Below, piece by piece: positions 2,582-64,000 of a DNA stretch of 64,000 nucleotides (the first letter of the stretch is position 1; each line of letters starts with the position of its first letter). Made by a program: the position numbers and the translations under genes. Origin of the DNA: Gilvimarinus sp. 2_MG-2023 (GTDB lineage Bacteria > Pseudomonadota > Gammaproteobacteria > Pseudomonadales > Cellvibrionaceae). The DNA is taken from NCBI RefSeq assembly GCF_030547685.1, contig NZ_JAUOQM010000052.1, positions 1 to 64,000 of the forward strand, read 5' to 3'. The notes below the pieces were generated by a model that was not told the origin of the DNA, did not search any database, and saw only the letters and a list, made by a program, of their open reading frames with translations.

Positions 2582-5500
2582 TTATCGACCTGGGGTAGTG
2601 GTAAAGTCCCAGACAACCAGGTTGGCTACCGTCAACTCACCGTTATGGCGGAAGTCCACCTTGATGTCATTGTTACTTTGCAGCACTTCAACCGGCACTG
2701 GAATCTCCAGCGTGGCGAAGTAACGGTCGGCTTGATAATCAGCCGGCCCGCGCCAGTCAATCGGCGTCTCCACCTCTACCCCATTGATGGTCAGGGTATT
2801 AATGGTGAGGTTGCCGTTAGGCACATTGTCTTCACTCATATACATTGCAACGGTCAAGCGCAGCATCGCCTCGGCTGGGCCACTTGGCACCTGCACACCA
2901 TTAACCGCTAAAGAAACATCACCGCCGTTAATAGAGACACGGTGCGGTACGCTGCCACCGCTAACACTGTTGCCAAAGTACTTCTTCTCTTGCACTTGTT
3001 CGTTTACCGCTACATTGTTATTCATGGTGTAGCGCAACACGATGGTGCCGTCCGGTCCGAGCGTTACCGTGCTTGGCGCCGAGTCCATAAAGCGACGATC
3101 CAGCTGAGTCTTGTAATTGGCATCAAAATGCATATCACGCATTTCAACTCTGGATACATTGCCCAACGACAGACCGTGCAGGTTAAGGTTTACGGTGGTA
3201 GATTCGTCTTCCAGGTTGTTCAGAATAACGAATACTTCATCGCCATCTACGTAAGATTCGATCTGTACATCCGCATCCGATGAACGCGTATCTACACGAG
3301 TGCCGTCAACATCGTCCCACAACTCGTAAAAACGGATATAGTCGCCCCAGGTCCAATCACCTTGGTTGAGGTTCTCTTCAATCAACATGGCGTAGTGATA
3401 ACGGTTTTGACAATCTGGCACTTCTTTATAGCCACAAATGCCTACGGTGGTGTATCCGTCCTGTGAACCTACGTAACCCCAGATAGGCTTGGCAGGTGTA
3501 AAGGGCATAGACTTAACAACATAGTCCGGGCGCTCCAAGAATTGCATCAACATGCCGTTAAAGGATTTCAGCACTTCAGAATCGTAACGCGGTTCGTGCG
3601 GTAGGTAATCCCAGCCACCTTGCACAGCGCCATACTCAGATAACACGATGGGTTTGCGGTTGTTCATGCCATTTTCGTGCACGTCGTACCACTCCATCAT
3701 ATCCAACATGCCCTGCACGTGACCGCCACGGCGCAAGGTGCCCTTGCCGCCTTCGTTAAGCGACGGCCAGTCGTAAACGTGTACGGCGTAAAAGTCCATG
3801 TTGTCGCCGGCGGCGTCCATAAAGCCTTTCCACATCACATCCCACTGATACCAATCCATCGCGCGCGTGTCGTCCACGCTAGTCGTCATGCGGCTTTGGA
3901 AAAACGCTTCCGACTCCGCTTCTTCTGCCGGGTCATCCGCCACGATCCACTGATCGTAAGAATCATCGGCAAAGCGCGAGATACCATCTCGACGATAGAA
4001 ATCGTGCTGCCCCCAGGTCATACCACCAATCAGCGGCGCTTCGCTGCCCAGACGCGATCGAATCTCTTGCGCCACCAGGTTGTGATACTCCCAGATTTGC
4101 TCTTGGTTGGTGACCATAAATTGACCGGTCTTCATCTTCATATCCGGCTCGTTAATCACTTCCCAGAAAGTGGGCGTAGGCTCACCAATATTGCCATTGC
4201 GGCTATTGGCAAAGTAGCTTTCAAGATACTTGCCTACCCACTCGGCCGAGGTCTCGATGTTCATCGGCTGCCAACCCGACCAGGTCTTACCGTTGTCGTA
4301 CCAGCTTAGGGTCGGGTACACCGGGTGCGGGTTTGTACCGGCAATCATCTGCGTTTTAGAGTCTGGGAAACGTGAATAGAACGGATTGTCCTCATAGGCT
4401 TGACGCAGCTCCGCGCCACGGCCTTCCATCCACTCCAAATCCGCCATATTAGAGCGGTTTGGATCTTCCTGGGTGTCCTGAAACTTCCAGGTAGCCGAGC
4501 CGTTATCGCGCCCCATGTACACATCGAGCTCGTTCAACAGATAATTCAGCTTGTCAGCGTGACCTTCCCAATCCTGCTCAAATACAGTGCTATGAACGGT
4601 CATATGACGGTCGCGACCAAAATCAGACACGCCGTTAACAATATGTTCGATATTGGCATTCACGTGAACATCTACCGTCTCAACCGTGCTCACTTGCGAC
4701 GATGAACAACCCTGGTTATTGGCAAACTCGCTGCCCGGGGTAGCAGGACAAACATCAACGCTGTTTACCACACCATCGCCGTCACTATCGCGGCCCGAAG
4801 CAAGACAGCCATCGGGGCCAACATTCGAGCGGAAGGTGTTGGGGCACTGATCATTCCAATTAAACACACCGTCAAAATCATCGTCATCGCCGCCGCTGGT
4901 GGCACACCCGACGGAGTTTACAAAAGCGTCCAAAGAGCTACTAGGACACTGATCGTCGCGATCGTTAATGCCATCCATATCAGTATCTAACTGCGAAGGG
5001 GAGCAACCTTCACCGTTGGCAGTTTCACTGCTAGGCGTGCTGGGGCAAGTATCGTTGACGTCGGCAACACCATCGCCATCACCATCTAAATTGTCATCGA
5101 CAGGGCCTAAATATTTAAAGACGATATTGTCGATATTAAATTGGAAATCTTCGGTACCGGCGCCAGTAATGCGTACTTTACTAATACCTGGGTAGACATT
5201 GAAGCGCGTGCTAGAGGTAACGTCATAGAAATCATCCCAGCCGCCCTGACTTACCACATCGGTTTTATTTTTAAGAACCAATTCACCCTGGTGATCGGTT
5301 AGCATCAAGCCTACAGCCGATCCGCTCGCGTTACCTGTGCCTACGCGATAAACCGCTTCGTACAAACCGCCCTGAGCGTTATCAATATCAAACTCGAGAT
5401 AATCACCGGCGTTAAAGTAATTAACCGCATGACCGCCATCAACACTGTAAATTTCTACTTCACCACCCACCGAGTTAAAGCTTTCAGCCTCAAGCGTAAA

Positions 5501-6679
5501 GTCACCCGATACGGTGACGACGCCGCCAGGTACTTGTGAGCTAGAGCTACCAGAGCTAACCGATGAACTGGAGCTACTGGTGCTACTCACAGAGCTGGAA
5601 CTGCTTACGGAACTGCTCGAGCTACTTACAGAGCTGCTGATCGACGAGCTAGAACTGCTAGAGCTAATCGAGCTACTTACAGACGAACTAGAACTGCTAG
5701 AACTACTGCTAGAACCAGTACCGGCATCGCTGACAAACGCCAAATCGAATTTATCAATATTCCACTGCCAATCATTGCTACCCGAGGCCAACAAACGTAC
5801 CTCAACCACACCGGCAGGTAGCTGAACGGTATGCCCAGCACCCTGGGCCTGGAAGTTATCCCAACCGTTGGCGGTGACACTTTTGGCCCCCTGAGAGACC
5901 CAATTGCCATTTTGCTTAACCTGAAACTCAACCTGTGCACCCGAGGTAATCGCGGTGCCAATAAAATAGGTCAAATCATAAATACCAGCACGCGACACTG
6001 AAATTTGATACTCGATCGCGTCGCCACGGTTGATGTAATTTAACGCAGTACTGCCATTAACCGAGTACGTGCTAACTGGTGTTGACTGGCCGTCGGCAAA
6101 GGTCCCACTCACCGCGTGATAATTTTCCGCCTCTTGGCTGATATCCGAAGGTTCTTCAGGCTCTGTTTCAGATTGGGTTAAGGTCAGGGAAAACTCATCC
6201 AAGTTCCACTGCCAATCGTTGGCGCCACTGCCGGTTAAACGGATGCTGACATTGCCTGCCGGCAGAGTGATCTCGTGAGTTCCGTCCAAAGGCTGAAAGT
6301 TATCCCAGCCACCGGTAGGTACCGTGGTGGTGCCTTGGCTTTGCCAAGTGCTGCCGTTTTTAACCGACAACTCCACCTCGGCGCCGTTGGGCACCGCGGT
6401 ACCAATCAAATACTGCACGGTGTAAACACCGGCTTCTGCGATGTTTACTTCGTACTCGACATAGTCGCCACGGTTAACGTAGTTAATAGCCTGTACACCA
6501 TTAACTGTATAAGTATTTACAGGCTGAGACTGACCATCGGCATAACTACCGCCTACGGCTGTAAAGTTTTCGGCCTGAACCTGCACCGTTTGCGCTAAAG
6601 CATGTGACGCCATTGCACCAGCCATCACAGACGAAACTGCGCAGGCAAGTGTCAATCGGGAGAAACGTTTGACTCTCAC
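2582..6679 (-). CDS. secreted multimodular GH86 beta-agarase/beta-porphyranase (3 CBM6, TSP3)
   Basis: This large (1365 aa) exported endo-enzyme probably cuts agarose or porphyran chains. In order it has a signal peptide (about 1-29, cleaved after SHALA), two CBM6 modules (about 30-170 and 185-320), a poly-Ser linker, a third CBM6 (about 400-530), thrombospondin type 3 calcium repeats (DGDGDGVADVNDTCP and relatives, about 535-675), and a C-terminal GH86 catalytic domain. The two expected glutamates are in WEVINEPDM (acid/base) and VLSEYGAV (nucleophile). The reading frame extends to a TTG at 6694, but that TTG overlaps the GGAGG ribosome site, and GTG at 6679 follows it by 8 bases, so I use GTG. 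The three-CBM6 layout resembles Saccharophagus GH86 enzymes. GH86 contains both agarases and porphyranases, so the substrate is not settled. It is preceded by two candidate operators. Confidence 0.9.
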   Translation of the reverse strand: MRVKRFSRLTLACAVSSVMAGAMASHALAQTVQVQAENFTAVGGSYADGQSQPVNTYTVNGVQAINYVNRGDYVEYEVNIAEAGVYTVQYLIGTAVPNGAEVELSVKNGSTWQSQGTTTVPTGGWDNFQPLDGTHEITLPAGNVSIRLTGSGANDWQWNLDEFSLTLTQSETEPEEPSDISQEAENYHAVSGTFADGQSTPVSTYSVNGSTALNYINRGDAIEYQISVSRAGIYDLTYFIGTAITSGAQVEFQVKQNGNWVSQGAKSVTANGWDNFQAQGAGHTVQLPAGVVEVRLLASGSNDWQWNIDKFDLAFVSDAGTGSSSSSSSSSSSVSSSISSSSSSSSISSSVSSSSSSVSSSSSVSSTSSSSSSVSSGSSSSQVPGGVVTVSGDFTLEAESFNSVGGEVEIYSVDGGHAVNYFNAGDYLEFDIDNAQGGLYEAVYRVGTGNASGSAVGLMLTDHQGELVLKNKTDVVSQGGWDDFYDVTSSTRFNVYPGISKVRITGAGTEDFQFNIDNIVFKYLGPVDDNLDGDGDGVADVNDTCPSTPSSETANGEGCSPSQLDTDMDGINDRDDQCPSSSLDAFVNSVGCATSGGDDDDFDGVFNWNDQCPNTFRSNVGPDGCLASGRDSDGDGVVNSVDVCPATPGSEFANNQGCSSSQVSTVETVDVHVNANIEHIVNGVSDFGRDRHMTVHSTVFEQDWEGHADKLNYLLNELDVYMGRDNGSATWKFQDTQEDPNRSNMADLEWMEGRGAELRQAYEDNPFYSRFPDSKTQMIAGTNPHPVYPTLSWYDNGKTWSGWQPMNIETSAEWVGKYLESYFANSRNGNIGEPTPTFWEVINEPDMKMKTGQFMVTNQEQIWEYHNLVAQEIRSRLGSEAPLIGGMTWGQHDFYRRDGISRFADDSYDQWIVADDPAEEAESEAFFQSRMTTSVDDTRAMDWYQWDVMWKGFMDAAGDNMDFYAVHVYDWPSLNEGGKGTLRRGGHVQGMLDMMEWYDVHENGMNNRKPIVLSEYGAVQGGWDYLPHEPRYDSEVLKSFNGMLMQFLERPDYVVKSMPFTPAKPIWGYVGSQDGYTTVGICGYKEVPDCQNRYHYAMLIEENLNQGDWTWGDYIRFYELWDDVDGTRVDTRSSDADVQIESYVDGDEVFVILNNLEDESTTVNLNLHGLSLGNVSRVEMRDMHFDANYKTQLDRRFMDSAPSTVTLGPDGTIVLRYTMNNNVAVNEQVQEKKYFGNSVSGGSVPHRVSINGGDVSLAVNGVQVPSGPAEAMLRLTVAMYMSEDNVPNGNLTINTLTINGVEVETPIDWRGPADYQADRYFATLEIPVPVEVLQSNNDIKVDFRHNGELTVANLVVWDFTTTPGR
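5516..5712 (-). repeat. serine-codon repeat encoding the poly-Ser linker
   Basis: Low-complexity runs of AGC/TCT/AGT serine codons encode the linker between the second and third CBM6 modules. Such linkers are common in Saccharophagus- and Cellvibrio-type secreted hydrolases. The complementary strand shows an open Leu/Glu-rich frame that is only a shadow. Confidence 0.7.
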
Positions 6680-6884
6680 TGGGATAACCTCCAATTATTT
6701 TATTATCTAGGTGTGCCAACAAGCCTGCCCAGTCCGATGGCGGTATTTGTAAGCGAAGCGGCCGCGCGGAAATGGCAGCCTAGGGAGAGGACATCTGGCA
6801 CAAACGCGTTCCTACGCATCTTGCACTCTATCGCCCATATTCTGAAATTACACTGACTTATGAAATTTACTATTCTTATCTTAT

Positions 6885-7007: not shown

Positions 7008-7031
7008 AAAAAAAGGGGCCGAAGCCCCTTG
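7008..7031 (-). terminator. rho-independent terminator of the GH50/PhoD-like operon
   Basis: On the minus strand AAGGGGC, tetraloop TTCG and GCCCCTT are followed by a T run, 9 bases beyond the stop of the PhoD-like gene. Confidence 0.9.
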
Positions 7032-7039
7032 CACAAACA

Positions 7040-9382
7040 CTAAAAATACTTGTATCGGTACGGCCAACCGGAAAATTGCGAATCGCGTGACGGGTTCGCA
7101 CCCCAAGGCCAACATTCAAAAGCAACTTCGCCTTTGGCGGGCTTGAACCGCACCAAGCCGTACCCTTCACTTTTTAAGTGCCGGTCTGCCAAAAATTTGC
7201 CCCAGGTAGTGTTATCGTCCTGAAAGTCCGCGTGGCTAATTTTAGGGTTGGCGACGGCCAGCACTCGCATTTTATTGCCAAAGGTATCGACAAAATTACC
7301 GGTATTCGGATCGTCATTGCGCTGATTGTCGAGGGCTTTAGCCGGCTCAAACCAACGCTGCCAAAAAGCCGCCGAAGCAGGCCCGGAAAAGAACAACACG
7401 CCGTCGTCAAACGAGTCGAGGCATTGCTCGGCCAACATGCCCAAGTGCTGATCGCCCGATAGCACGACCGCCTGCGCTTTTTTCGCCAAAGCAATAGCGC
7501 GCCGGCGGCCGTCGGGTGGATAACCATTGGCGTCATAATCCAGCAATGGCTCGCCTTTTTCGTCCGTTTGCGGGGAGCCCCACATAGATGCGGTAATAAT
7601 CGCTTTGGGCATACCCGGGCGCGAGTTAGCCCAGTTCTCTAAAAACTGTTCCTGACGCGTACCCAAAAGCACACCACTGGTGGTTTGGGGGTCGGGCTCG
7701 TAATCGGGCGCGGTTTTAAATTTGCGATCCTCTACAAACGCAAAGTTAACCCCACCGTACACAAACGAGCCATAGTACACGGGGATACAACCGTTAATGG
7801 GGGTAGGATCATAGGCGTCAGGGTTGTGGCTGCACTGCACCCGGTACACCATTCGCACTAAATCTAAATCCCATTTAAAGCCACCGTCTTCTTCTTTGGG
7901 GCCACCGGATACACCGGCCTGCCCCCACAGGTTGCCCTGCAGCACATCGTGATCGTCCACCAACACGATAGAGGGCCGATTGCGGGTCATATCGCGAAAT
8001 GCCCACAGCCACAGATACCAACGGTATAAGGTATCTAACTTGGCTTGAGGCGTATCGCGGCCGTAGCGCGTCGGGTAGGTCTCGTAGTACTGATCGCCCA
8101 CAAACAAGCATAGGTCGGGGTCGTGCGTCGCACTGTTGCTAACCAGCTCATTGTGAGGAAAGAAAATATTGTCCGGGGTATAGCGGCCCAATTCGCGCTC
8201 TTCGGGAATCAGCTTATTATAATGACCTTCATCAAGTGATTTGGCCGTCGGGATAATACAAGAGTACAGCCCCACTTTTAGCTCGTCGGGGCTGGCGCTA
8301 TCTTGTCTAAACTGTCCGGTAAACGCTGGGTACTGTGCGGCATCCGGAATTACAATCCGATAATCCACCGCCTGCGAAGCATCCCAATCGTCGGCCCTAA
8401 AACGCGCCACAAAGCCATCTTCAATCGCCGCAATAGCCCGTGTTTGCCACTCGCCCGAGGCACTTTTAAGTTGCAGTTGGGCGTTGGGGTGCGCATCAGT
8501 ATTGAGCGGAAAAAACTGCGCAGTTAGCTTCATAACACGCTGGTTTAGGCTGTACAAACAACCCAACACCGGGCCTTCCGCTCGGCTAGGCTCGGCGAGA
8601 ATTTTATCCCCGGCGGTGGCAATGTCTTTAAACCACCAGCCCATACCCGGCTGCTTAACCGGTGTCGATGACACCAGCATAACCCCGCCCATTAACTCCT
8701 CGGGCGCCACGTCAGTGCGTACGGCAAAACCTATTTCGCGTTCGGTTTTTGCATCCAACGCCATTAGGCGCACATCAAAACGGCCGTCTGCAACTGGATC
8801 AATATGGCAGTCGAGCAACACAGCCCGATCCCCTAGCTCACCAATCGGTGATGCCCCGGTGCGGGTGAGTGACTCAAACGCCAGAGTGTTCTTAGCCTCG
8901 GAAAAATCCTGAAATCCCAGCTCGCCTTGACTGTTAAGGGTGGCCATAAAGCCGCCGCCGGCGCCAGAAAAGCGCTGCGCCAAGGCACTGGCACGGTAGT
9001 CTAACTGACCGGCACCCACGCCTAGCAACAGGCCACAAAAGCCCGCTTTGCCCGGTTGTAAGGCACCTACCGTTAAGCGAATACGGGCCGGTTTGTGCGC
9101 CTCGGTTAACTCGCGGGTTAACAGCGATACCGTGCGCACCTCGTAACTCTCATCACTTTGCACACACTCGATACGGCCGCTATTTGCCTGCCAGTCCTGC
9201 AAGCGGTTAGCCCAAAAATCGCGGCCCAGCCACGTTTGATGATTGTTCTCGATGGTTAGAAAGTCGGTGGGCATAGCCACCGCAGGGGATCGCTCGGCGG
9301 CGGCGAGTGCAGCAAGGCTAGGTGCGATGCTCGCACCTAGCCCCGCTGACGCCGTCAATTTGATAAATTGGCGGCGTTGCAT
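7040..9382 (-). CDS. Tat-exported PhoD-like metallophosphoesterase with N-terminal beta-sandwich region
   Basis: This 780-residue protein has a twin-arginine signal (RRQFIKL, residues 3-9), an N-terminal region of about 330 residues that looks beta-rich and lectin-like, and a PhoD-type catalytic domain. Metal-binding motifs are visible as GDQYYE (429-434), DDHDVLQGN (476-484) and SGDQH (642-646). Classical PhoD enzymes are calcium/iron phosphodiesterases or phosphomonoesterases exported by Tat. Here the ATG follows the GH50 stop directly (TAAATG), so synthesis is coupled to an agarase. A diverged paralogue with the same layout begins at 62494 beside other carbohydrate genes. A role on substituted galactans is suggested by context only; the substrate could be a phosphate or another ester. 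Confidence 0.8.
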   Translation of the reverse strand: MQRRQFIKLTASAGLGASIAPSLAALAAAERSPAVAMPTDFLTIENNHQTWLGRDFWANRLQDWQANSGRIECVQSDESYEVRTVSLLTRELTEAHKPARIRLTVGALQPGKAGFCGLLLGVGAGQLDYRASALAQRFSGAGGGFMATLNSQGELGFQDFSEAKNTLAFESLTRTGASPIGELGDRAVLLDCHIDPVADGRFDVRLMALDAKTEREIGFAVRTDVAPEELMGGVMLVSSTPVKQPGMGWWFKDIATAGDKILAEPSRAEGPVLGCLYSLNQRVMKLTAQFFPLNTDAHPNAQLQLKSASGEWQTRAIAAIEDGFVARFRADDWDASQAVDYRIVIPDAAQYPAFTGQFRQDSASPDELKVGLYSCIIPTAKSLDEGHYNKLIPEERELGRYTPDNIFFPHNELVSNSATHDPDLCLFVGDQYYETYPTRYGRDTPQAKLDTLYRWYLWLWAFRDMTRNRPSIVLVDDHDVLQGNLWGQAGVSGGPKEEDGGFKWDLDLVRMVYRVQCSHNPDAYDPTPINGCIPVYYGSFVYGGVNFAFVEDRKFKTAPDYEPDPQTTSGVLLGTRQEQFLENWANSRPGMPKAIITASMWGSPQTDEKGEPLLDYDANGYPPDGRRRAIALAKKAQAVVLSGDQHLGMLAEQCLDSFDDGVLFFSGPASAAFWQRWFEPAKALDNQRNDDPNTGNFVDTFGNKMRVLAVANPKISHADFQDDNTTWGKFLADRHLKSEGYGLVRFKPAKGEVAFECWPWGANPSRDSQFSGWPYRYKYF

Positions 9383-11755
9383 TTACTCGTCTCCGTAGCG
9401 TTCGTCGTAAAGATCGCGGCCAAGCTCTTTCGCCGCCTCTACCATTTCTGGATAGGGAGTATCGGTCACGTCGACAAAACCGACGTTGTAGTTTTCACCA
9501 TCGTGAGCCCGGCCCGTAAGCGGCGAATCCATATACTGAAACCAGTGCGCCCCGACAAAGTATGGATTCTCGATGACGGTATCCATGTAGCGCAAGTACA
9601 TTTGCGCCCGGTCATCTTGATCTTCGGCGTGAATCAAGCCTGGGTGATACAAGCCGCGATCCATGGCGCCCATGTGGAACTCACCAATAATGCTGGGCTT
9701 GTCGATCTCAGCCAAAAATTCCCATTTCTTTTTGTTCAGCCCTTCTTTGTAAACATTGTAGCTAACCACATCCGCGTACTTAGCCGCAGCTCGTACCACT
9801 TCGATGGGCATACCCCAATCGGGCAGGCGTGAGCCGAGGTAAAGGTGGTTGGGCAAGTGCTCTTGCACCGCATCGTGTACCACGCGGTAGTACTGAGTGG
9901 CGTAGTGCTCCAGCATATCGGCGTAATCCACACGCTGAGCTTCGGTAATCTCGCCCGGCGTAAAGCCACTATCAAACTCGGCCCAATCGGCCAGCTTTAG
10001 ATTCCACGCTTGGTTAAAAGCCTTAATACTTTCATATTTGGCCTTCATCAGCTGACTAAATTGCGCTTTAGTGGGCACGGTTGATGCGTCGCGGCCCAGG
10101 GTGTTAATCACAATGCCGTAATGCAATTGATCGGACTCAGAACGGCCAAAGCTCATTTCGTTGTCGATAAACACACCCACACACCAGGGAGTATTTTGCA
10201 CCTCGGCGGCCACTTGCATAGCGGTTACATTAGCACGCTCGGCAAACATAGGGTCGAACACGTCGGGCAGCGGGCCCCAAAAATCGTTACCGCTAGAGAC
10301 CTTTTTAAAATCACCAATGATCCAACCGTTGGCGAAGAATGGAATCTGTTCGTTGCTGTAAAAGCGCGGATCGGTCCAGTTACCTAAAGAGGTAAAGCCC
10401 CAGTTGAGCATGCGCTTTTTAGTCACATCCTCCCATTTATCTAAAAAGCTATTGGGGCTCTCTTCACCGTATTTGCGCTCGAGGTTGGCCTGATAAAAAC
10501 TGAAAGTTTCACCGTGCTCAAGTGGCCCGGAGTGAGCCGCGCGACGGTAGCTGTAATGGTTTGCCAGCTCACCGTCCATTTCGGGCAGCCAGCTGAACAT
10601 ATCGGCGCGGGTTTTGGAGGCCACAAAGCGGGTTTTCTTGGCTTCATCGCTGACCTTAAGCATACCGATGGAGTCTTCTGGAGTCAGATCATTTTCATCG
10701 CGCTGATTGATTTTATCCTGATCGTAATCATAACCGGTCATGGTCGTGGAGTTGGACAGGCGAATAATATCCAAGCCGGTGGCAAAGTAGAGGTAACCCT
10801 CTGGGTCTACCAATGCCCATTTACCATCGACCTTTTCGGTGCGAAAGTAGCCGGTAGCCTCAAGCTTTGGGCCGCTCTTCCAGCCGCTAAATTTAGATCG
10901 ATCGGCCATGGCTTTGCCATCTAATTCGGCCAACTCGGCGTCGCGCACCTGGTGCAGTTCTTCCAGGCTATCAATTTTATCGGCGTAGTCGTACTTGGCG
11001 TTTTGGCCAAACTCGTCGACGATACCCACCAAAAACTCTTCGTCCAGTTCAGGGTTAGGTGTGAGCCGAACATTGTCGATACTAATGGTCTTGTTGCTAA
11101 CCGCGCCCTGCACACTTAACGAGATCTCGGTAATCTGGGACACATCCAAACTCTTAACGCCCCACATCCAGATAAAGTGGGTATCCTCACCGCTCCAGGT
11201 GGGCGGGTTTGAGCGCAAGCCGGATGAGAAATTAAGCTCGGTGGCATCATCGTCACCGGCGGTTTCGATGTCGTGTCCGGCCAACTTAGCATAATAGGTG
11301 CTAAAGCCTCCACGAGGAACCACAACGCTACGCGTCGCAACATTACCTTTGCCATCTTTAATATTTAAGTAAACTTGGGTGGACTGCTCGCCGTCGTTTG
11401 CCAAGTCCATACTCAGGCTAAAACTCTCATAGTCGCTCCAATCCCACGGCTGGCTGGGTGAGAAAGTTATGCCCGAATAACCATGCTCCTGAGAAAGAAA
11501 ATCAACTTTTAACGATTGACCATCAGCTTCAGAAATCTGGGTTATCTCCGCCCAGGCCGATTTTACGGTTGCATCTAATTTGCCATCAAAATCATACAAT
11601 ATCTGAAGCGGCTTATCGGTTGCTGCCGGACTCTGTGCAACTAGCTCTGTAGAAGTGGGCGTTGCATCGGTGGTTGGCGTCTCATCAGAACTACACGCCG
11701 TAATAAGTATCGAGGACAATAAAACCGCGGGGGTTAGAGTTTGATAAACATTCAT
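9383..11755 (-). CDS. GH50 beta-agarase, outer-membrane lipoprotein
   Basis: This 790-residue enzyme has a lipoprotein signal (lipobox LITACSS, Cys at about 21), an N-terminal carbohydrate-binding-like sandwich (about 50-230) and a C-terminal GH50 TIM barrel. The likely acid/base Glu is in VFIDNEMSFGR and the nucleophile in IIGEFHMGAMDRG; AHWFQYMDSPLTGR is also typical of the family. GH50 agarases commonly release neoagarobiose or neoagarotetraose from chain ends. The frame opens at a GTG at 11764, but ATG at 11755 gives a normal lipoprotein signal and is preferred. The stop abuts the ATG of the PhoD-like gene, forming a two-gene operon. The lipid anchor suggests processing at the cell surface or in the periplasm. 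Confidence 0.9.
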   Translation of the reverse strand: MNVYQTLTPAVLLSSILITACSSDETPTTDATPTSTELVAQSPAATDKPLQILYDFDGKLDATVKSAWAEITQISEADGQSLKVDFLSQEHGYSGITFSPSQPWDWSDYESFSLSMDLANDGEQSTQVYLNIKDGKGNVATRSVVVPRGGFSTYYAKLAGHDIETAGDDDATELNFSSGLRSNPPTWSGEDTHFIWMWGVKSLDVSQITEISLSVQGAVSNKTISIDNVRLTPNPELDEEFLVGIVDEFGQNAKYDYADKIDSLEELHQVRDAELAELDGKAMADRSKFSGWKSGPKLEATGYFRTEKVDGKWALVDPEGYLYFATGLDIIRLSNSTTMTGYDYDQDKINQRDENDLTPEDSIGMLKVSDEAKKTRFVASKTRADMFSWLPEMDGELANHYSYRRAAHSGPLEHGETFSFYQANLERKYGEESPNSFLDKWEDVTKKRMLNWGFTSLGNWTDPRFYSNEQIPFFANGWIIGDFKKVSSGNDFWGPLPDVFDPMFAERANVTAMQVAAEVQNTPWCVGVFIDNEMSFGRSESDQLHYGIVINTLGRDASTVPTKAQFSQLMKAKYESIKAFNQAWNLKLADWAEFDSGFTPGEITEAQRVDYADMLEHYATQYYRVVHDAVQEHLPNHLYLGSRLPDWGMPIEVVRAAAKYADVVSYNVYKEGLNKKKWEFLAEIDKPSIIGEFHMGAMDRGLYHPGLIHAEDQDDRAQMYLRYMDTVIENPYFVGAHWFQYMDSPLTGRAHDGENYNVGFVDVTDTPYPEMVEAAKELGRDLYDERYGDE

Positions 11756-11869
11756 AGCTGCCACTTTATTTTAATAGGTTTGAATAAATATTACTTATCT
11801 ATGCTAATGGAGATGGCTAGATAATATTAAAAAAGAATGAGCAAGACGCGTTAAGATCTTTCTCCGGCG

Positions 11870-11904
11870 CATAAAATAAAGGAGCCGTATAATACGACTC
11901 CTTT
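11870..11904 (-). terminator. terminator of the AHG catabolic operon
   Basis: On the minus strand AAAGGAG and CTCCTTT bracket an internal CGTAT/ATACG pairing and are followed by TTATTTTAT. It lies 12 bases beyond the aldehyde dehydrogenase stop. Confidence 0.75.
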
Positions 11905-11915
11905 ACCAAACCTCG

Positions 11916-13358
11916 TTATTCCTGAAGGTAAACAGTTTTCTTTTCTAGGTACTGCTCCAACCCATACTTACCATCCTCACCGCCGGCGCCGCTGAGCTTC
12001 CAACCGTTATGAAAGCCTTGGTGTTGCTCACCGATGCCCCGGTTAACATACACCTCACCACTTTCCACCTCATCAATATACTGGTGGATATAGCGCATAT
12101 TCTCGGTAAACAGGTAAGTAGAAAGGCCATACTCACTGTCGTTAGAATAACTGATAGCTTCGTCAATGGATTTAATTTTAACAATAGGCAAAATAGGACC
12201 AAAAGTCTCTTCGTGCACTAAAATATTGTCCTGTGCAACGTCCCCCAACACGGTAGGCTGATACCAGTGACCATTAGGATATTCAGGCACATCTGCCACA
12301 CCGCCGCCTATCAGTAGCTTCGCGCCCTGCTCGATCCCCTTTTTAACCAGAGCATCAATATTTTCAATTTCACGGGCATTAACCTTGGGCCCCATTGTGG
12401 TTTCCGGGTCCATCGGATTCCCCACCTTAATTCCTTCTACGAGTGGCAGCAATTTACCGACAAACTCATCGTAGATAGCTTCGTGCACATACAAACGCTC
12501 GGCACAAGTACATACCTGACCACAATTTGAAAACCGTGTGGTAAAAGCTGCATCTACAGCAGAATCGAGATTGGCATCTTCCATAACAATGAACGGCGCT
12601 TTACCGCCCAACTCGAGCATCACCGGAGTTAAATGATCAGCACTGGTGCGATAGATGGCCTGTCCCGCGGGCGTACTCCCTGTCATGGTAATCAGACGGG
12701 TAATGGGGCTTTCACACAGGTGTTGTCCCACCACACGCCCTACACCATTGACGATATTTAAAATACCGGCAGGTAGACCCACTTCGTTGGCAATTTCACC
12801 CAATGCCAAGGTAGCCAAAGGTGTTTCTTGTGTTGGTTTAACCACAATCGCGTTGCCGGTAACCAGCGCTGGACCAATTTTACGTCCTGCGAGTGCCAGC
12901 GGAAAATTCCAGGCAGTAATAGCGACCACGACACCGCGAGGTACCTTATGAATATATATTTTCTCACCAGGATTATCGGAAGGTAAAATATCACCCTCGA
13001 TTGTTAAAGCGTTGTCACAGGCGAATTCAATAAATGTTGCGGTTGCTTCAACCTCAGCCTCGGCTACGGCCAACAATTTACCCTGCTCATTAACCAGAAG
13101 TTCGGCAAGCTGAGGTTTTTTATCACGAATAGCCTGTGCAAATTTACGCATTACAGAGGCACGATCTCGAGCAGTGCGTTTGGCCCACAATTTTTGCGCA
13201 GCGCTTGCACTATCGAGAGCGACTTTAGCATCCTCTGTAGTACCCGCTGGGATGGTACCCACTAACTCACCCGTTGTAGGGTTAAGAACTTGCAGGGTTT
13301 CATCAGAGCTGGACGGCACATACTGGCCGTCAATAAAGTTAAGATTGTTTTTAATCAT
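11916..13358 (-). CDS. aldehyde dehydrogenase, probable 3,6-anhydro-L-galactose dehydrogenase
   Basis: This 480-residue NAD(P)-dependent aldehyde dehydrogenase shows [23 protein letters not shown] (cofactor region), the catalytic Glu in LELGGKAPF and the catalytic Cys in [13 protein letters not shown], with the usual HEETFGP near the C-terminus. ATG at 13358 is chosen over an in-frame TTG at 13379 that lies inside the preceding gene. It starts 5 bases after the KduD-like reductase stop and is the last gene of a four-gene operon. Together with the enolase-superfamily cycloisomerase this matches the AHG pathway, where the enzyme oxidises 3,6-anhydro-L-galactose to 3,6-anhydro-L-galactonate. By sequence alone it resembles the lactaldehyde dehydrogenase (AldA) group. 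Confidence 0.85.
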
Positions 13359-13363
13359 AACGC

Positions 13364-14128
13364 TTATCGTCCCATCCAACCGCCGTCTACAAGCACGACG
13401 CTACCGTTCATGTAATCAGACGCTTTTGAGGCCAAGAACACAGTAGGGCCTTTAAAATCATCCGGGGTACCCCAGCGGCCTTGCGGAATACGCTCCAAAA
13501 TAGCTTTAGAGCGATCTTTATCTTCGCGCAGCGCCTGAGTGTTATCAGTGGCAATGTAGCCGGGTGCAATGGCGTTTACATTAACGCCTTTAGGCGCCCA
13601 CTCATTTGACAGGGCTTTAGCCAATTGGCCGATGGCGCCTTTGCTGGCAGCATAACCGGGCACTGTGATACCGCCTTGAAAGGTCAGCAACGAGGCGGTA
13701 AAGATAATTTTACCGCTGCCGCGCTCGGCCATGGTTTTGCCAATTTCACGGCTCAGGATAAACTGTGAATTAAGGTTAACTTCAATGACCTCATCCCAGA
13801 TATCGTCGCCGTGCTCGGCCGCCGGGGCACGTTTAATCGTGCCGGCGTTGTTAACCAAAATATCGATTTTTGGGTGATCGTTTTTTACCTGATCAATAAA
13901 GCTTTTCAGGTTGTCACGATTAGAAAAATCACACTGGTAGGCCGAAAATTTACGGCCAGTTTTTTCTACGTCTTTAGACACCTCAGAGCCTTGCAGCTCC
14001 AGCGAGGCCGATACGCCGATCACGTCGGCGCCCGCTTCGGCCAAAGCCACGGCCATGGCTCGACCAATACCGCGCTTACAGCCTGTTACCAGAGCGACTT
14101 TACCGCTTAAATCAAAATAGTCGTTCAT
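13364..14128 (-). CDS. KduD-like short-chain dehydrogenase/reductase
   Basis: This 254-residue SDR has the cofactor motif [12 protein letters not shown], the catalytic Ser in [11 protein letters not shown] and YAASK. It closely follows the pattern of KduD (2-dehydro-3-deoxy-D-gluconate 5-dehydrogenase), including [17 protein letters not shown] and [21 protein letters not shown]. In the AHG pathway a reductase of this type would turn 2,5-diketo-3-deoxygalactonate into 2-keto-3-deoxygluconate. The ATG overlaps the stop of the zinc dehydrogenase (TAATG), with GGAG upstream. An upstream in-frame TTG (14143) is rejected because the ribosome site lies between. The specific step is inferred from operon context. 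Confidence 0.85.
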
Positions 14129-15150
14129 TATTCCGCTCCACAATCAATCAGAGTTTTCATGCCCGCTGGGTTTAAATCAATACCGGCAAAGGCATCGCCA
14201 ATTTTATCCAACGGTGAGACAGAGCTAATAAAATTATCGATGGTAATTTTGCCGCTGGAGATCAGATCAATCGCCTGATCGAAATCTTTGGCCTCGTACA
14301 CACGTGCACCTACCAACTCTAACTCCTTCCAGAAGAAGTGGAACAAGTTAACCTGGGGCTTCTCAGAGTGAATAGCAACCATACAAATACGACCGCGAAC
14401 GGCAGCAATTTCAGTCATTGTGTCCACGGCAGGTTGCACACCTGTTACCTCAAACACCACGTCGGCGCCTTTGCCATTGGTCCACTCTTTAACCACTTCA
14501 CCAATATCTTGTTTAGTTGGGTCAACGGTTTCAAAACCGAGTTTTTCAGAAAAAGCTAAGCGATCGGCGTTAACCTCAGACACCATCACCTCGGCACCAA
14601 TACCTTTGGCCACCGCGGCAATTAGCTGACCGATGGGGCCACCGCCCAGAACCACGGCTTTTTCACCTGCTTTAAGGCCGGCGCGGGACACATCGTGACA
14701 AGCCACTGACAACGGCTCGACCAATGCGCCCTGCTTTAAGCTTACGTTCTCGGGCAACTTGTGCAGTGTGCGAGATTTAACTGTCCAGTAACTTTGGAAA
14801 GCACCGGTGGTATCAACGCCCATAAAATTTAAGTTATGGCATACATGGGAATGCCCAGCTTTACAGGCGGGACACTCACCGCAATAATCCAACGGGCGAA
14901 CCACAACGCGATCACCAGGCTTATAGTCGGTTACGCCTTCGCCAACTTCGTCAACAGTACCTGACATTTCGTGGCCAATGGTTTGCGGTATAGAAACGCG
15001 CTTGTCCATAACGCCGTGATAAATGTGCATGTCGGTGCCGCAGATGCCAGCAAAGCCCACTTTGATGCAGACCTCACCCGCTTTGGGCGCCACTTTTGTG
15101 CCTTCAACAACGTCGAAGGTTTTATTACCTGTGTATCGTGCCGCGTGCAT
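14128..15150 (-). CDS. Zn-dependent dehydrogenase, probable 2-keto-3-deoxy-L-galactonate 5-dehydrogenase
   Basis: This 340-residue medium-chain dehydrogenase has the catalytic-zinc region GICGTDMHIYHG and GHEMSG, a four-Cys structural zinc loop (CGECPACKAGHSHVC) and the nucleotide-binding motif VLGGGPIGQL. It resembles the sorbitol, threonine and L-galactonate dehydrogenase group. The ATG at 15150 has GAGG six bases upstream and lies 8 bases after the cycloisomerase stop. The in-frame TTG at 15162 overlaps that stop and is unlikely. In the AHG route such an enzyme oxidises 2-keto-3-deoxy-L-galactonate at C5, and the following SDR then reduces the product, inverting the centre. The substrate is inferred from neighbours. 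Confidence 0.8.
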   Translation of the reverse strand: MHAARYTGNKTFDVVEGTKVAPKAGEVCIKVGFAGICGTDMHIYHGVMDKRVSIPQTIGHEMSGTVDEVGEGVTDYKPGDRVVVRPLDYCGECPACKAGHSHVCHNLNFMGVDTTGAFQSYWTVKSRTLHKLPENVSLKQGALVEPLSVACHDVSRAGLKAGEKAVVLGGGPIGQLIAAVAKGIGAEVMVSEVNADRLAFSEKLGFETVDPTKQDIGEVVKEWTNGKGADVVFEVTGVQPAVDTMTEIAAVRGRICMVAIHSEKPQVNLFHFFWKELELVGARVYEAKDFDQAIDLISSGKITIDNFISSVSPLDKIGDAFAGIDLNPAGMKTLIDCGAE

Positions 15151-15158
15151 ACGAAACC

Positions 15159-16307
15159 TCAATTAGCAGAATGAATTAAATAGTTTTTCAGTAGTGCATC
15201 ATCAAATACCACCCCAGTGCCCGGTACATCGGGCGCAATCGCCAAGCCATTGGAATCGATTTTAAGAGGGTATTTGGTGTACTCATCAATCGGAAAAGAA
15301 TGAACCTCTAACTGCCCAGCATGGGGCTGTGAGGCCATTAAAGATACATGTAATTCGTGCATACCGTGGCTGCATACCGGCAGATTATGAGCATAGGCTA
15401 AATTTGCCACCGCCAACCAGCCAGTTATACCGCCAATGTTTGATGCATCAGGCTGAACAAACCCAAGCTTGGCCTGATCAATTGCGTAGGTGAACTCATG
15501 AATCGTGTGCAGATTCTCACCCATAGCCAGCGCAATCGAAGTAGCATCCGCAATGCGCCCATAGCCTTTATAATCATCGGGAATCGTGGGCTCTTCAAAC
15601 CAAGTAATATCTTGGTCAGCAATTGCGTTAGAAAAGCGAATAGCGCCTTCAACGGTCATCGAGTAGTTTGCATCCACCATAAAGGTGACGTCCGGACCAA
15701 TCAACTTGCGTACGGCGCGCACCCGCTCAACATCTTCGCGGTAATCTTCTTTACCCACTTTGATTTTGACGGATTTAAAACCGCGATCCAAATACGACTG
15801 AATATTGGCAAGTAGTTTTTCTTGATCGAAATTAAGGTCAATGCCGCCCGCGTAACAGCGAGTTTTATTACTCAATCCACCGGCGACTTTCCACAAGGGT
15901 TGCCCCAAGCGTTTGCAACGAATATCCCACAACGCAATATCAACAGCGGACTGAGCAAAGCTCACTAGCCCGCCGCGCCCGACATAATGAAGGTGCCATT
16001 GAACCTTTTCCCAAACCGCCTGAATCTGTCCTGCATCCGTCCCCTTAAGCATGGGAGCCAACTCATCTTTCAACAGTGAGTAAATAGCGCGACCACCACT
16101 ACCTCCGGTATAGGTATACCCTACCCCTTCAGTACCGTCGTTACAGACAATGCGGCACAAAATCAATTCAAAATGTGTATGGGTGCCATGCTTGGCGTCT
16201 GCCAACACTTCCTTAAGGGGCACCCGGTAGTACTCCACCTTCACCTCAGCAATCGACTCAGGCGCTTCGGCGCTCTGCTGCTTCGCAGCAACTAAATCTT
16301 CATTCAT
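15159..16307 (-). CDS. enolase-superfamily enzyme, probable 3,6-anhydro-L-galactonate cycloisomerase
   Basis: This 382-residue mandelate racemase/muconate lactonising enzyme family member shows the catalytic lysines in SVKIKVGKED, metal ligands in MVDANYSM, WFEEPTIPDD and MGENL, and the late catalytic His in CSHGMHELH. Known AHG cycloisomerases open the anhydro ring of 3,6-anhydro-L-galactonate to give 2-keto-3-deoxy-L-galactonate. The companion aldehyde dehydrogenase, zinc dehydrogenase and KduD-like reductase in the same operon make this assignment likely. It is the first gene of the operon, with a TTGTCAACAA palindrome 53 bases upstream. It is predicted to be cytoplasmic; other acid-sugar dehydratases of this superfamily remain possible. 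Confidence 0.85.
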   Translation of the reverse strand: MNEDLVAAKQQSAEAPESIAEVKVEYYRVPLKEVLADAKHGTHTHFELILCRIVCNDGTEGVGYTYTGGSGGRAIYSLLKDELAPMLKGTDAGQIQAVWEKVQWHLHYVGRGGLVSFAQSAVDIALWDIRCKRLGQPLWKVAGGLSNKTRCYAGGIDLNFDQEKLLANIQSYLDRGFKSVKIKVGKEDYREDVERVRAVRKLIGPDVTFMVDANYSMTVEGAIRFSNAIADQDITWFEEPTIPDDYKGYGRIADATSIALAMGENLHTIHEFTYAIDQAKLGFVQPDASNIGGITGWLAVANLAYAHNLPVCSHGMHELHVSLMASQPHAGQLEVHSFPIDEYTKYPLKIDSNGLAIAPDVPGTGVVFDDALLKNYLIHSAN

Positions 16308-16359
16308 CGTTTCACCCAGAACCTCTAATATAGATGCAGCCTAATCCCTAGATTGTAAA

Positions 16360-16369
16360 TTGTCAACAA
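16360..16369. promoter_or_regulatory. palindrome TTGTCAACAA upstream of the AHG operon
   Basis: This member of the TTGTNNACAA set lies immediately after the transporter stop and upstream of the cycloisomerase gene, next to a second half-site (TTGTAAATTG). It is a candidate operator for the AHG operon. Confidence 0.5.
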
Positions 16370-16370
16370 T

Positions 16371-17945
16371 TTATCGATGGACGTTTGGCGCAAGCATCCC
16401 TTCAATTTCTTCAATTGACTTACCTTTTGTCTCCGGCATCAACCACGCCAACAGTATTAAGGCAAGCACCGCACTCACTCCGTAGGTCAAGAAAACACCA
16501 GACGACCCCATCACCTCAAGCTGTATCGGAAATAACTGCTGCACCATTGCACTGACAACACTAGCCACCAACGCCATAGCGGGAATCGCGACACTGCGCA
16601 CATGAATGGGGAACAATTCTGAAAACAGTACCCACATCACAGGGCCGATAGAAAATTGGAAAGCAGCAATAAAAGCTAAAACACCAAACAGAATGACGGT
16701 AGCGTTCATGTTGGCTGCGTATTGAAACAACACCGCCTCATTATCCCGAGCCATTTTCGGCCCCAACTGCTCTATCAGAGCCGCTTTAAAACTTAAATCA
16801 CTGTCATAAGTCACACCAGACAAAACTTGCAACCCCGAAACATCTATGTGCTCCGCCAAACTTGCCAATGCATCAACCGTTAGCGTATAGGTGGCATTAC
16901 TAAAGGCCCAGGCGCATGAAAGCAAGCTAACACCTGCCACCACCAAGCCAACTATAATTAACACTCTGCGCCCCAGCCGATCAATTAATGCAAGCGCAAG
17001 CGCTGTTGCCAACACACTAATCAGACCGATATAAACACCGTTAAACAAAGCTGCATTGGTACCCAGCCCCACCTGCTCAAAAATAATAGGGGCATAAAAC
17101 ATCACCGCATTAATACCCACAGTTTGTTGAAAAAACGCAATCACCAATGCAATCACTAACGCTTTGCGCACCGCGGGGGAAAATAGGTCTTTCAGCTGAT
17201 GCCAAACACTGTGGTCTCTATGGCCGTAGGTAGAGCTATCGCGAATCCCCTGCATCTCAACGGCCAGCTCAGCCGGCGGCACCAGCTTTGCCATTACCAA
17301 TTCGGCTTCATCCACACGACCACGCAATACCAGCCAGCGCGGACTCTCTGGAATACAGAAGAGTATCAACACCCAAAATAGCGCTGGCACAATTTCAACA
17401 CCAAGCATCCAACGCCAGGTTTGGGTATCAAGCATTAATGTGCTTACCCACGAAACCTCCAGCTCTGACATCCAATGCACCGCAAACACAGATAAGTACG
17501 CCGCCGACAGACCAACCACAATGGCCATTTGATTCATAGCCACTAATTTGCCGCGCACCTTAGGCGGCGCTATTTCACCAATGTACATAGATGCTAGTGA
17601 TAATGACGTAAAGGCCAGCCCACCCAAAAAGCGCGCTGCCACCAAAGCTTCGTATGTAGGCGCAATAGCGGATGTAACCGCCGAGACCACATATAATGAA
17701 GCAATAATCTGCAGAGTCTTTTTCCGCCCCAGCTTATCGGCCAAGTAACCTGCCAACAGCAATGCCAACAACACACCGTAACCGGGAGACCCCACCACCA
17801 AGCCCACCTGAAAGGCAGACAGATCAAATACTTCCGTGATATCTCGCACCACCCCCGATATGAGTGCAGCGTCCAAGCCGAAAATAAATCCACCGAAAGC
17901 CACGATAGCGGCAAAACGAATAGCGGCAAACTGATAGGAGGTCAT
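16371..17945 (-). CDS. MFS sugar porter (sugar:proton symporter family)
   Basis: This 524-residue inner-membrane protein has about 12 hydrophobic segments. It carries sugar-porter signatures: GYLADKLGRKKT after TM2, PESPRWLVLRGR before the central loop, DRLGRR in the second half and PETKGKSIEEIE at the C-terminus. The loop between TM9 and TM10 is longer than usual (about 65 residues). It probably imports a monosaccharide released by the surface enzymes, such as galactose, AHG or 6-O-methylgalactose. It lies 63 bases upstream of the AHG operon on the same strand. ATG at 17945 is preferred over a TTG 12 bases upstream. The exact sugar cannot be read from sequence. Confidence 0.85.
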   Translation of the reverse strand: MTSYQFAAIRFAAIVAFGGFIFGLDAALISGVVRDITEVFDLSAFQVGLVVGSPGYGVLLALLLAGYLADKLGRKKTLQIIASLYVVSAVTSAIAPTYEALVAARFLGGLAFTSLSLASMYIGEIAPPKVRGKLVAMNQMAIVVGLSAAYLSVFAVHWMSELEVSWVSTLMLDTQTWRWMLGVEIVPALFWVLILFCIPESPRWLVLRGRVDEAELVMAKLVPPAELAVEMQGIRDSSTYGHRDHSVWHQLKDLFSPAVRKALVIALVIAFFQQTVGINAVMFYAPIIFEQVGLGTNAALFNGVYIGLISVLATALALALIDRLGRRVLIIVGLVVAGVSLLSCAWAFSNATYTLTVDALASLAEHIDVSGLQVLSGVTYDSDLSFKAALIEQLGPKMARDNEAVLFQYAANMNATVILFGVLAFIAAFQFSIGPVMWVLFSELFPIHVRSVAIPAMALVASVVSAMVQQLFPIQLEVMGSSGVFLTYGVSAVLALILLAWLMPETKGKSIEEIEGMLAPNVHR

Positions 17946-17978
17946 AGATATCACCAAAGCCTGATTATTATGGGTGAC

Positions 17979-49688: not shown

Positions 49689-49696
49689 CTTAAAAA

Positions 49697-49918: not shown

Positions 49919-49964
49919 TTGCCATGGGGGAGGATGCCTACCTGCAATGCAGGTAGGCGAAGAA

Positions 49965-62493: not shown

Positions 62494-64000
62494 ATGAATT
62501 TCTCTATTTCGCGTCGAGCTGCGTTAAAGCTATCCATTGCCGGTATGGCTACTCAAATCATTGGTTGCTCTGCTCCGGCCAGTAGAAATTCTGGTAAAGC
62601 CATTCATTCTCTTTCTCACATAGTGAAGGATAGCTGGGCTCAAAGTTATGACCGGGTATGGATTGGCGGTAGTTATTGGGCCAATCCCATGGAAGATTGG
62701 CAAGTGGTCAATGGTGGCGTTGAGTGTCTCAGTGCAGGTGGTAACAGAAGCATTCACTCCTTAACTCACCAATTAGTGAGTCACCAGCCTTTTCGTCTGA
62801 GTGTCCATGTAAAAAGATTGAACATAGATTCGCAAGACGGTGGTGCAGGTTTGCGGATAGGGGTTAAGAGCGAAATTAATGAATATCGTAGTAATTGTTT
62901 TGTGCAAAATGGGCTGGACGCCGGAATTATTAACAACCAGCTGTCGTTAGGTAATAAAAAGGCCGACTTAAATCAAGAAGTTAACGCTCATGAGATTAAG
63001 CTGGTGTTGAAAGGTGAGCCTTTGGGTAATCTTTTCGTTTTAACCTTGGATGCTTATTTACTAGAGAGCGACCAACATATCGGCAAGCTAACATATTTAG
63101 CTCCCGCCAATGAGGTTTTAGGTAATGTCTGCGTAGTTAGTAACTTTAGCATTACATTAATGGAACCGGATGATTTCACAGTTGCCGCCGATACGGCGGC
63201 AGACGCACAAAACGGTACGCGATACAGGTTTTCACAATGGACGCTAGAGGGTAAAGCGTTTAATGACGCTCAAGAGCAAAATTTTGGCCCCATACTCTGG
63301 ACTATGTATACCTTGAGTAATACTCGTTCGGATGAAGGCTATGTTATGAAGCTCAGCGCACTTACCGGTCCGCTGGGGGAGAAAGACAACCAAGAGGTTG
63401 AGTTACAAGTTCAAAAGTCTGGTAAGTGGGTTTCTTTGGGTACCAGCAAGCTGGACCCAGATGCCTGGACGGCCACTTTCCGTATTGCTAACTGGAATGA
63501 AAAAGTCGCGACACCGTATAGGGTTGTATACTATGAGAAACGCCGTGATGGCAGCAATAAGCCAGATGTATATACTGGTACTATTCAGGCACAGCCGGTA
63601 AATCGACAATTGCGTATGGCGGCGTTGACGTGTCAAAACGATTACGCCTTCCCGTATGAACCTGTCGCAAATAATGTTAAGGCATCTCAACCCGAATTGA
63701 TTCTATTCTCAGGCGATCAAATTTACGAAAACCACGGTGGATTTGGTGTTGTCCGATTCCCTGCACAAGCGGCTATACTAAATTATTTGCGTAAATTTTA
63801 TCAGTTTGGTTGGGCCTTTAGAGATTCAATGCGCAATGCTCCCTCTATTTGTCTACCAGATGATCACGATGTCTTGCAGGGTAACCTGTGGGGCGAGGGC
63901 GGCGATAGAATGTCCGATCAGGCGAAGATAGTCGGCCGCACTGATGCGTGGGGCGGTTACATTGAACCCATACGAATGCTTAATGCCGTACACAAAACAA
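62494..64000 (+). CDS. second PhoD-like metallophosphoesterase, Tat lipoprotein, cut by the window edge
   Basis: 502 codons are open to the end of the window with no stop. The N-terminus combines a twin-arginine motif (SRRAALK, residues 6-12) with a lipobox (IIGCSA, Cys25), so it is probably exported by Tat and lipid-anchored. A beta-rich N-terminal region (about 40-380) precedes the PhoD-type domain, with SGDQIYE (406-412) and DDHDVLQGNLWGEGG (456-470). WANPMEDWQ near the N-terminus parallels WANRLQDWQ in the first copy (7040-9382), so the two are paralogues over their full length. It follows the TRAP genes by 130 bases on the same strand. The substrate is unknown. Confidence 0.85.
   Translation, partial: MNFSISRRAALKLSIAGMATQIIGCSAPASRNSGKAIHSLSHIVKDSWAQSYDRVWIGGSYWANPMEDWQVVNGGVECLSAGGNRSIHSLTHQLVSHQPFRLSVHVKRLNIDSQDGGAGLRIGVKSEINEYRSNCFVQNGLDAGIINNQLSLGNKKADLNQEVNAHEIKLVLKGEPLGNLFVLTLDAYLLESDQHIGKLTYLAPANEVLGNVCVVSNFSITLMEPDDFTVAADTAADAQNGTRYRFSQWTLEGKAFNDAQEQNFGPILWTMYTLSNTRSDEGYVMKLSALTGPLGEKDNQEVELQVQKSGKWVSLGTSKLDPDAWTATFRIANWNEKVATPYRVVYYEKRRDGSNKPDVYTGTIQAQPVNRQLRMAALTCQNDYAFPYEPVANNVKASQPELILFSGDQIYENHGGFGVVRFPAQAAILNYLRKFYQFGWAFRDSMRNAPSICLPDDHDVLQGNLWGEGGDRMSDQAKIVGRTDAWGGYIEPIRMLNAVHKT

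Follow-up and report, generated by a model that had tools for sequence, protein, structure and literature searches.

A lectin-like PhoD-type metallohydrolase accompanies agar catabolism genes in Gilvimarinus and other agar-degrading bacteria

The first 64,000 nucleotides of contig C10 (125,221 bases; NZ_JAUOQM010000052.1) in the 3.76-Mb genome of Gilvimarinus sp. 2_MG-2023, hereafter the window, carry an agar-degradation locus that includes PhoD1, a protein that starts with a twin-arginine motif and is predicted to consist of a lectin-like domain, a small beta domain and a PhoD/purple acid phosphatase (PAP) core. Genes of this family co-occur with GH50 agarase genes in nearly every genome in which either was found, and they recur within agar and galactose gene clusters across genera, so that PhoD1 very probably has a role in agar catabolism. 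More tentatively, we favor the reading that it serves the agar/porphyran system as a dedicated accessory hydrolase, exported through the twin-arginine translocation (Tat) pathway, which would remove a charged substituent from lectin-presented galactan.

Co-occurrence was surveyed in a family-level group of 144 genomes, scoring matches to PhoD1 or to PhoD2, a paralogous lectin-PhoD at the far end of the window, at an E-value of 1e-30. PhoD was recovered in 26 genomes, GH50 in 28, the enolase-superfamily enzyme termed ACI in 28 (at 1e-60), GH86 in 27 and GH117 in 16 (at 1e-30). All 26 PhoD-positive genomes encode both GH50 and ACI, 25 encode GH86 and 13 encode GH117; conversely, 26 of the 28 GH50 genomes encode PhoD (Fisher p = 1.3e-26, uncorrected for kinship, genomes of one genus not being independent). 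Counted over the 32 genera of the group, PhoD occurs in 8 and GH50 in 10. The PhoD-positive set mixes subfamilies, with PhoD1 itself in 21 genomes (at 54% or more) and only 34–36% homologs in G018, G019, G020, G028 and G105. GH50 is found without PhoD in G006 (100% complete) and G056 (72% complete), and ACI without PhoD in G006 and G008. GH86, considered as a fixed partner, was rejected as such: G112 has PhoD with no GH86 match, and G006 (weak matches) and the incomplete G056 have GH86 and no PhoD. Among 369 genomes sampled evenly from the class, the window's own was the sole carrier of PhoD or GH50, a result that shows rarity but adds no independent PhoD–GH50 pairs.

A second sample of 34 loci in named genomes was retrieved with six short peptide patterns of PhoD1; being chosen by match it is non-random and favors close relatives, and some of its organisms also belong to the family-level group. 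It covers Gilvimarinus, Marinimicrobium, Microbulbifer, Pseudomaricurvus, Shewanella, Pseudoalteromonas, Paraglaciecola, Glaciecola, Psychrosphaera, Thalassotalea, Steroidobacter, Peristeroidobacter, Hirschia, Hellea, Arenicella and others. Leaving out the L027 genome, GH50 is present in 31 of 33 locus genomes, all 31 with a close PhoD homolog (52–96%), and the two that lack it, from Dyadobacter and Rhodothermales, have homologs only 29–31% identical. A preliminary description of this DNA had proposed surveying the family for co-occurrence with GH50 and GH86, and the outcome is positive.

Within the fetched stretches (up to 10 kb on each side where available), the 34 loci hold GH50 in 23 cases, a TonB receptor in 21, an MFS transporter in 17, a KDG-type kinase in 16, GH86b in 14, GH117 in 12 and ACI in 9. 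At least one of GH50, GH86, GH117 and ACI lies within the stretch at 27 loci and none at the remaining seven (L009, L011, L022, L030, L035, L036 and L037), and at 23 of the 34 PhoD begins 0–156 bases behind the end of an agar or galactose gene on the same strand. In the window this neighbor is GH50, whose TAA stop (9385–9383) abuts the PhoD1 ATG at 9382 with no base between, exactly as the preliminary description had read it; the junction reads ...TACGGAGACGAGTAAATGCAACGC, and a GGAGA lies 7 bases 5' of the ATG, inside the coding end of GH50. The zero-base junction recurs at L004, L005 and L006, that is, at three of the 34 loci besides the window, and is a Gilvimarinus trait, whereas membership of agar loci is what generalizes. 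Strict GH50 coupling was accordingly rejected as a general rule, GH50 being the same-strand upstream neighbor at four of the 34 loci (three Gilvimarinus, one Marinimicrobium). Elsewhere this place is taken by a KDG-type kinase, GH117, GalM/GalE, GH86, aldehyde dehydrogenase or enolase-superfamily gene. Since the immediate partner varies by genus, PhoD would appear to belong to the pathway as a whole and not to a GH50 partnership alone. The earlier argument for galactan processing rather than phosphate scavenging had leaned on tight coupling to GH50; the role itself is supported by co-occurrence and by operon membership in many genera, and the coupling argument in itself is weak.

In Pseudoalteromonas (L013), genes for MFS, KDG-type kinase, GH117, GalT, GalK, GalE and GalM are followed after 18 bases by PhoD1. 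A further contig (L085), which we take to be that of Saccharophagus degradans 2-40, has PhoD1 between a TonB receptor region and a GH86 gene, and its GH50 counterpart is 61% identical to the window's upstream gene. The order of its genes matches the locus numbering in PMC3124978, and from the gene count we infer that PhoD1 is Sde_2654 there.

The assignment of PhoD1 to the PhoD superfamily rests on a PF09423 match of 42.4 bits (cut-off 27) over residues 414–671. NCBIfam and PHROGs gave no match to PhoD1, and a search of PDB sequences found none with the single protein and only 2yeq with a profile. An AlphaFold model built from 24 sequences (predicted local distance difference test, pLDDT, 83.8; predicted template modeling score, pTM, 0.86) was matched by Foldseek first to Bacillus subtilis PhoD (2yeq, E 6.7e-18); the further hits are purple acid phosphatases and, for the most part, legume lectins. 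VIA-align placed it on sweet potato PAP (Z 26.6; 364 residues; root-mean-square deviation, rmsd, 2.9) and on 2yeq (Z 24.5; 413 residues; rmsd 3.6). The model has both the PAP/PhoD metallophosphatase fold and, ahead of it, the jelly-roll fold of a legume-lectin-like domain. The N-terminus, MQRRQFIK, reads by eye as a twin-arginine motif; RR is present in 24 of the 25 PhoD1 rows printed, the exception (L032) having a short chosen start, and in some relatives (for example L013, L019, L034 and the PhoD2 rows) the printed N-termini show, again by eye, a lipobox-like Cys after the motif. The PhoD-type protein with a large N-terminal beta-rich region that had been proposed from the letters alone is what the profile match and the model recover.

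In B. subtilis PhoD, according to the available portion of PMC4223295, Fe3+ is ligated by a Tyr and Cys180 and accompanied by two Ca2+, Asp436 bridges Fe and CaA, and Asn272 or an Asp is a CaB ligand; the variants C180A, D265A, N271A, N272A and D436A are inactive, and D207A and D266A are drastically reduced. We further infer the numbering of Tyr210 and His438, Asp207 as an iron ligand, the sites of Asp265 and Asp266, and Asn271 as a ligand to CaB. C180, D207, D265, D266 and D436 align with C375, D430, D476, D477 and D644 of PhoD1, C180 being matched through an alignment with the genome's other PhoD, because the aligned 2yeq fragment begins after it. The canonical Fe3+ site (Cys180, Asp207, Tyr210, His438) thus has counterparts in C375, D430, Y433 and H646, and the metal-ligand aspartates Asp265, Asp266 and Asp436 in D476, D477 and D644; all seven residues are invariant in a 24-row alignment that spans two subfamilies and three phyla. 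The canonical Asn271–Asn272 pair is not retained in the sequence alignment: PhoD1 has Q482-G483-N484, the pair occurs in 0 of 35 rows, and the family motif DDHD-x-x-[QH]-x-N occurs in all 35. This altered motif, together with the lectin-like domain, would suit a non-catalytic galactan-binding protein on an inactive PhoD scaffold, a reading made highly improbable by the invariance of the iron and Asp calcium ligands.

A more substantial alternative, though still an unlikely one, is that PhoD1 is an ordinary phosphomono- or phosphodiesterase acting on red-algal phosphoesters (phospholipids, nucleotides, phosphorylated glycans), co-regulated as agar signals algal biomass, and leaving the galactan untouched. 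The retained iron and Asp calcium ligands fit it, as does one haloarchaeal relative near an inorganic phosphate transporter gene, and both B. subtilis PhoD and Streptomyces chromofuscus phospholipase D act on phosphoesters (PMC4223295, available portion). It sits poorly, however, with the recurrence of agar and galactose catabolism genes around PhoD, where no phosphate gene was seen among the annotated neighbors (many neighbors being unannotated), with the absence from all 35 rows of the Asn–Asn pair, each residue of which is essential in the B. subtilis enzyme, and with the lectin-like domain preceding the core, which suits a glycan substrate.

The favored reading, a dedicated accessory hydrolase, can be laid out as follows. 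PhoD1 would be exported folded through Tat to the periplasm or, where the signal is lipobox-like, to the membrane surface; the lectin-like domain would present galactan oligosaccharides to a PhoD-type Fe3+/Ca2+ center; and a metal-bound hydroxide would hydrolyze a charged substituent, namely a phosphate or sulfate ester or, with lower likelihood, a pyruvate ketal or another group, which would otherwise block the exo-acting GH50, GH117 or uptake. Removal of an ester from algal galactan, as the preliminary description had put forward, is possible. A bolder version seems rather doubtful to us: the lectin-PhoD clade would be the first carbohydrate-active branch of the PhoD/PAP fold, retaining its iron and Asp calcium ligands with the Asn–Asn calcium pair rewired, and cutting a sulfate, pyruvate ketal, lactone or (in genomes without GH117) anhydrogalactose linkage and not a phosphoester.

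Several observations weigh against a dedicated agar function. The complete genome G006 has GH50, GH117 and ACI, yet no PhoD, and Bacteroides uniformis and Microscilla plasmids with ACI homologs have no PhoD match (plasmids only), so that agar use there may do without PhoD. The AlphaFold model is weak at the altered motif (residues 481–500, pLDDT 51–54) and at residues 431–440 (pLDDT 54), beside the iron-ligand Tyr433; the Asn–Asn pair being absent and the model uncertain at that place, we class PhoD1 as PhoD-like and not as a canonical PhoD. Homologs at 43% lie on three Haladaptatus plasmids; none of these plasmids has a GH50 match, and no agar genes were seen among the products annotated in the fetched stretches. 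On one of them the inorganic phosphate transporter gene is found some 1.4 kb upstream of the match, on the opposite strand and separated from it by small genes; another Haladaptatus PhoD is preceded, at about 1.8 kb and on the other strand, by a pyrroloquinoline quinone (PQQ) sugar dehydrogenase gene. The family is therefore not inherently an agar family, and, given the context of these relatives, the PhoD core may have a general phosphoester function taken over by agar degraders. Finally, the host genome has ten ordinary PF00884 sulfatase matches, none of them on the window's contig.

Sulfatases bear on a further argument of the preliminary description, that, the window having none, PhoD1 might remove another ester from algal galactan. 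No sulfatase was found among the window proteins scanned (30 of the 39 listed open reading frames, ORFs); the argument is weakened by the ten matches elsewhere in the genome and by Thalassotalea (L027), in which a PF00884 sulfatase gene (12413–13894) lies 27 bases behind PhoD1. In Psychrosphaera (L029, 14748–17629), PhoD1 and GH86 are followed by two sulfatase genes of the same cluster as that of L027. PhoD1 thus does not merely stand in for sulfatases, and it can belong to loci that process sulfated galactan. PhoD1 itself has no match to the PF00884 profile and is not among the genome's ten.

PhoD2, the second lectin-PhoD, brings in another alternative. Its gene lies behind GH2, a cytochrome c-GSDH gene and TRAP genes (DctP, a small gene that is probably DctQ, and DctM). 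This order, the Marinimicrobium run of PhoD1, DctP, a small gene and DctM, the Haladaptatus PQQ sugar dehydrogenase gene mentioned above, and a cytochrome c gene adjoining the Catenovulum PhoD would be in keeping with a sugar lactonase or similar hydrolase working with periplasmic sugar oxidation, whose carboxylate product would enter by the TRAP transporter. We regard this as improbable, since the fetched stretches of the 34 loci show TRAP genes in a single case and GSDH in none. The preliminary description mentioned neither the minus strand of PhoD1 nor PhoD2, whose plus-strand gene begins at 62494 and extends past the end of the window. A PhoD2 relative in G018 starts 133 bases behind GH50. 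Catenovulum adriaticum carries a gene of this subfamily on plasmid pCadTS8_2, where GH50 was matched at five places; the gene adjoins those for rhamnose mutarotase, altronate dehydratase and GH2, and arylsulfatase genes lie some 12 kb upstream of it.

A 35-row tree separates 25 proteobacterial PhoD1 rows, spanning ten families, from 10 others, including the three Haladaptatus proteins and PhoD2 (support 100/99), with long branches leaving the deeper placing unsure. Of the 32 close focal proteins, 24 entered alignment A1, together with the two distant ones (L035, L037), L002 and a second copy each from L018 and L020; PhoD1 of L011, L014, L017, L018, L020, L026 and L033 was omitted because it nearly duplicates other rows, and that of L028 for an apparently broken frame. 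In this last locus, of Paraglaciecola hydrolytica S66 (10001–12465), PhoD1 is split over two overlapping frames by a frameshift or sequencing error. The proteins of Steroidobacter agaridevorans and Peristeroidobacter agariperforans (L022, L030, 9893–12238) are identical in the tree, which suggests recent transfer or close kinship.

Thirteen of the 26 PhoD-positive family-level genomes (G063, G064, G072, G081, G085, G087, G089, G090, G095, G102, G105, G112 and G127) have GH50 and ACI and no GH117 match at 1e-30, with only two short weak ones at 0.001; eleven of them belong to one genus, the others being G112 and G127. GH117 is likewise absent at 1e-10 from 11 of the 33 locus genomes, about five of which are the same organisms. 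On presence alone, PhoD1 is a candidate for the alpha-1,3 cleavage of neoagarobiose in such genomes. This is the most improbable reading of all: the other 13 genomes have both GH117 and PhoD, which in L013 lie within one gene run, the pattern is not significant (about 0.15, by hand, over 29 genomes with ACI or GH50), and we know of no glycosidase with this fold. GH117 was moreover searched with one query, so that distant GH117 may be missed, and for Persicobacter, also without GH117, the available portion of PMC5300873 proposes a GH43 protein for the neoagarobiose-splitting step; that of PMC8551122 is silent on the presence of GH117 in Microbulbifer.

An APH-type kinase gene adjoins an enolase gene near PhoD1 or GH86 in L082 (13914–17728), L086 (18468–19949) with L087 (2–2243), and L022 and L030 (7450–9822), with an aldehyde dehydrogenase added in L082 and L086/L087; among the stretches examined the pair occurs only in GH117-less genomes, and it is absent from those of L008–L011. 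Our guess is that the two enzymes could lead glycerate to phosphoenolpyruvate. Paired CoA-transferase family III genes lie near agar genes on the window's contig and in one GH117-less genome, and also beside the PhoD locus of an Arenicella metagenome-assembled genome (L038 15504–17779; L081 2–1812; L036 6896–9196).

Table 1. Features of the PhoD1 locus and of PhoD2, in window coordinates.
Feature	Position	Strand	Basis
PhoD1: twin-arginine start, lectin-like and PhoD-like metallohydrolase, 780 aa	7040..9382	minus	ORF with ATG start; PF09423; AlphaFold model
Signal region, residues 1–31, RRQFIK motif	9290..9382	minus	read from sequence
Legume-lectin-like domain, residues 32–260	8603..9289	minus	AlphaFold model; legume lectins Z ~17, 188–197 residues aligned, rmsd 2.7–3.8
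Small beta domain, residues ~267–360, between lectin-like and catalytic domains	8303..8584	minus	model; 2yeq alignment begins at residue 267
PhoD/PAP-type catalytic domain, residues 365–780	7043..8290	minus	PF09423; 2yeq E 6.7e-18, Z 24.5 over 413 residues
Motif DDHDVLQGN, residues 476–484: Asp pair kept, Asn271–Asn272 replaced	7931..7957	minus	alignment; ligands from PMC4223295 (available portion)
Terminator-like hairpin directly 3' of PhoD1 stop	7013..7030	minus	7 pairs, then T run
GH86-type porphyranase/agarase with CBM6, downstream of PhoD1	2582..6694	minus	Pfam
GH50-type beta-agarase, directly upstream of PhoD1	9383..11764	minus	Agarase_CBM E 1.2e-63
ALDH, SDR, ADH, enolase-superfamily enzyme (ACI) and MFS transporter, upstream	11916..17957	minus	Pfam
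PhoD2: second lectin-PhoD paralog	62494..64000, continues to contig position 64881	plus	31–33% identical to PhoD1

The run from ALDH to the MFS transporter (Table 1) is, we presume, probably the anhydrogalactose catabolic set. Terminator-like sites such as the hairpin behind PhoD1 number 20 in the region against 19.1 in shuffles, that is, no excess. The contig also carries RepA, ParA and ParB genes (48888–53740 of the window), which suggests that it is a plasmid; in three named Gilvimarinus genomes the same agar locus lies on contigs of 0.77 to 4.1 Mb. FG-GAP/ASPIC-UnbV proteins (34243–37449) recur in PhoD loci, their cluster 14 being present at 8 of 34.

PhoD1 would thus be a conserved and probably overlooked enzyme of red-seaweed sugar breakdown in many agar-eating relatives. 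P. hydrolytica (L028) has the gene in its agar cluster, as does S. degradans if L085 is rightly identified. The agarose pathway of the former is described as complete (PMC5943477) and the agar system of the latter has been reviewed (PMC3124978); in the accessible parts of the main texts of both the word phosphatase is absent, as is hypothetical in that of PMC5943477. A search of open-access literature for PhoD or phosphatase with agar terms, or for Sde tags, found no paper on PhoD1, in agreement with the preliminary remark that a function of PhoD-like enzymes in agar loci is not established. PhoD1 raises the questions of which feature of natural agar needs such an enzyme and whether a PhoD fold acts on sugars.

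Among known systems, PhoD1 most resembles the Fe3+/2 Ca2+ phosphodiesterase PhoD of B. subtilis (2yeq), with which it shares the fold, the Cys/Asp/Tyr/His iron ligands and, by alignment, the Asp calcium ligands; it differs in its extra lectin-like domain of about 230 residues, its agar operon context, an identity of only 16–17% over the fold and the replacement of Asn271–Asn272 by [QH]-x-N. Plant purple acid phosphatases (1xzw, 1kbp) share the catalytic fold (Z ~26) and, by alignment with PhoD, a tyrosine-ligated iron site, but according to the available portion of PMC4223295 they have an Asp where the PhoD1 family has Cys375, plus a His2Asp1Asn1 second metal site. Legume lectins resemble residues 32–260 in fold, but at only 4–11% identity. 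The other PhoD of the Gilvimarinus genome (C11, a 594-aa frame) belongs to the same Pfam family (362.7 bits), and differs from PhoD1 in being too short for the extra domain and in having the motif DDHEIANDT in place of DDHDVLQGN.

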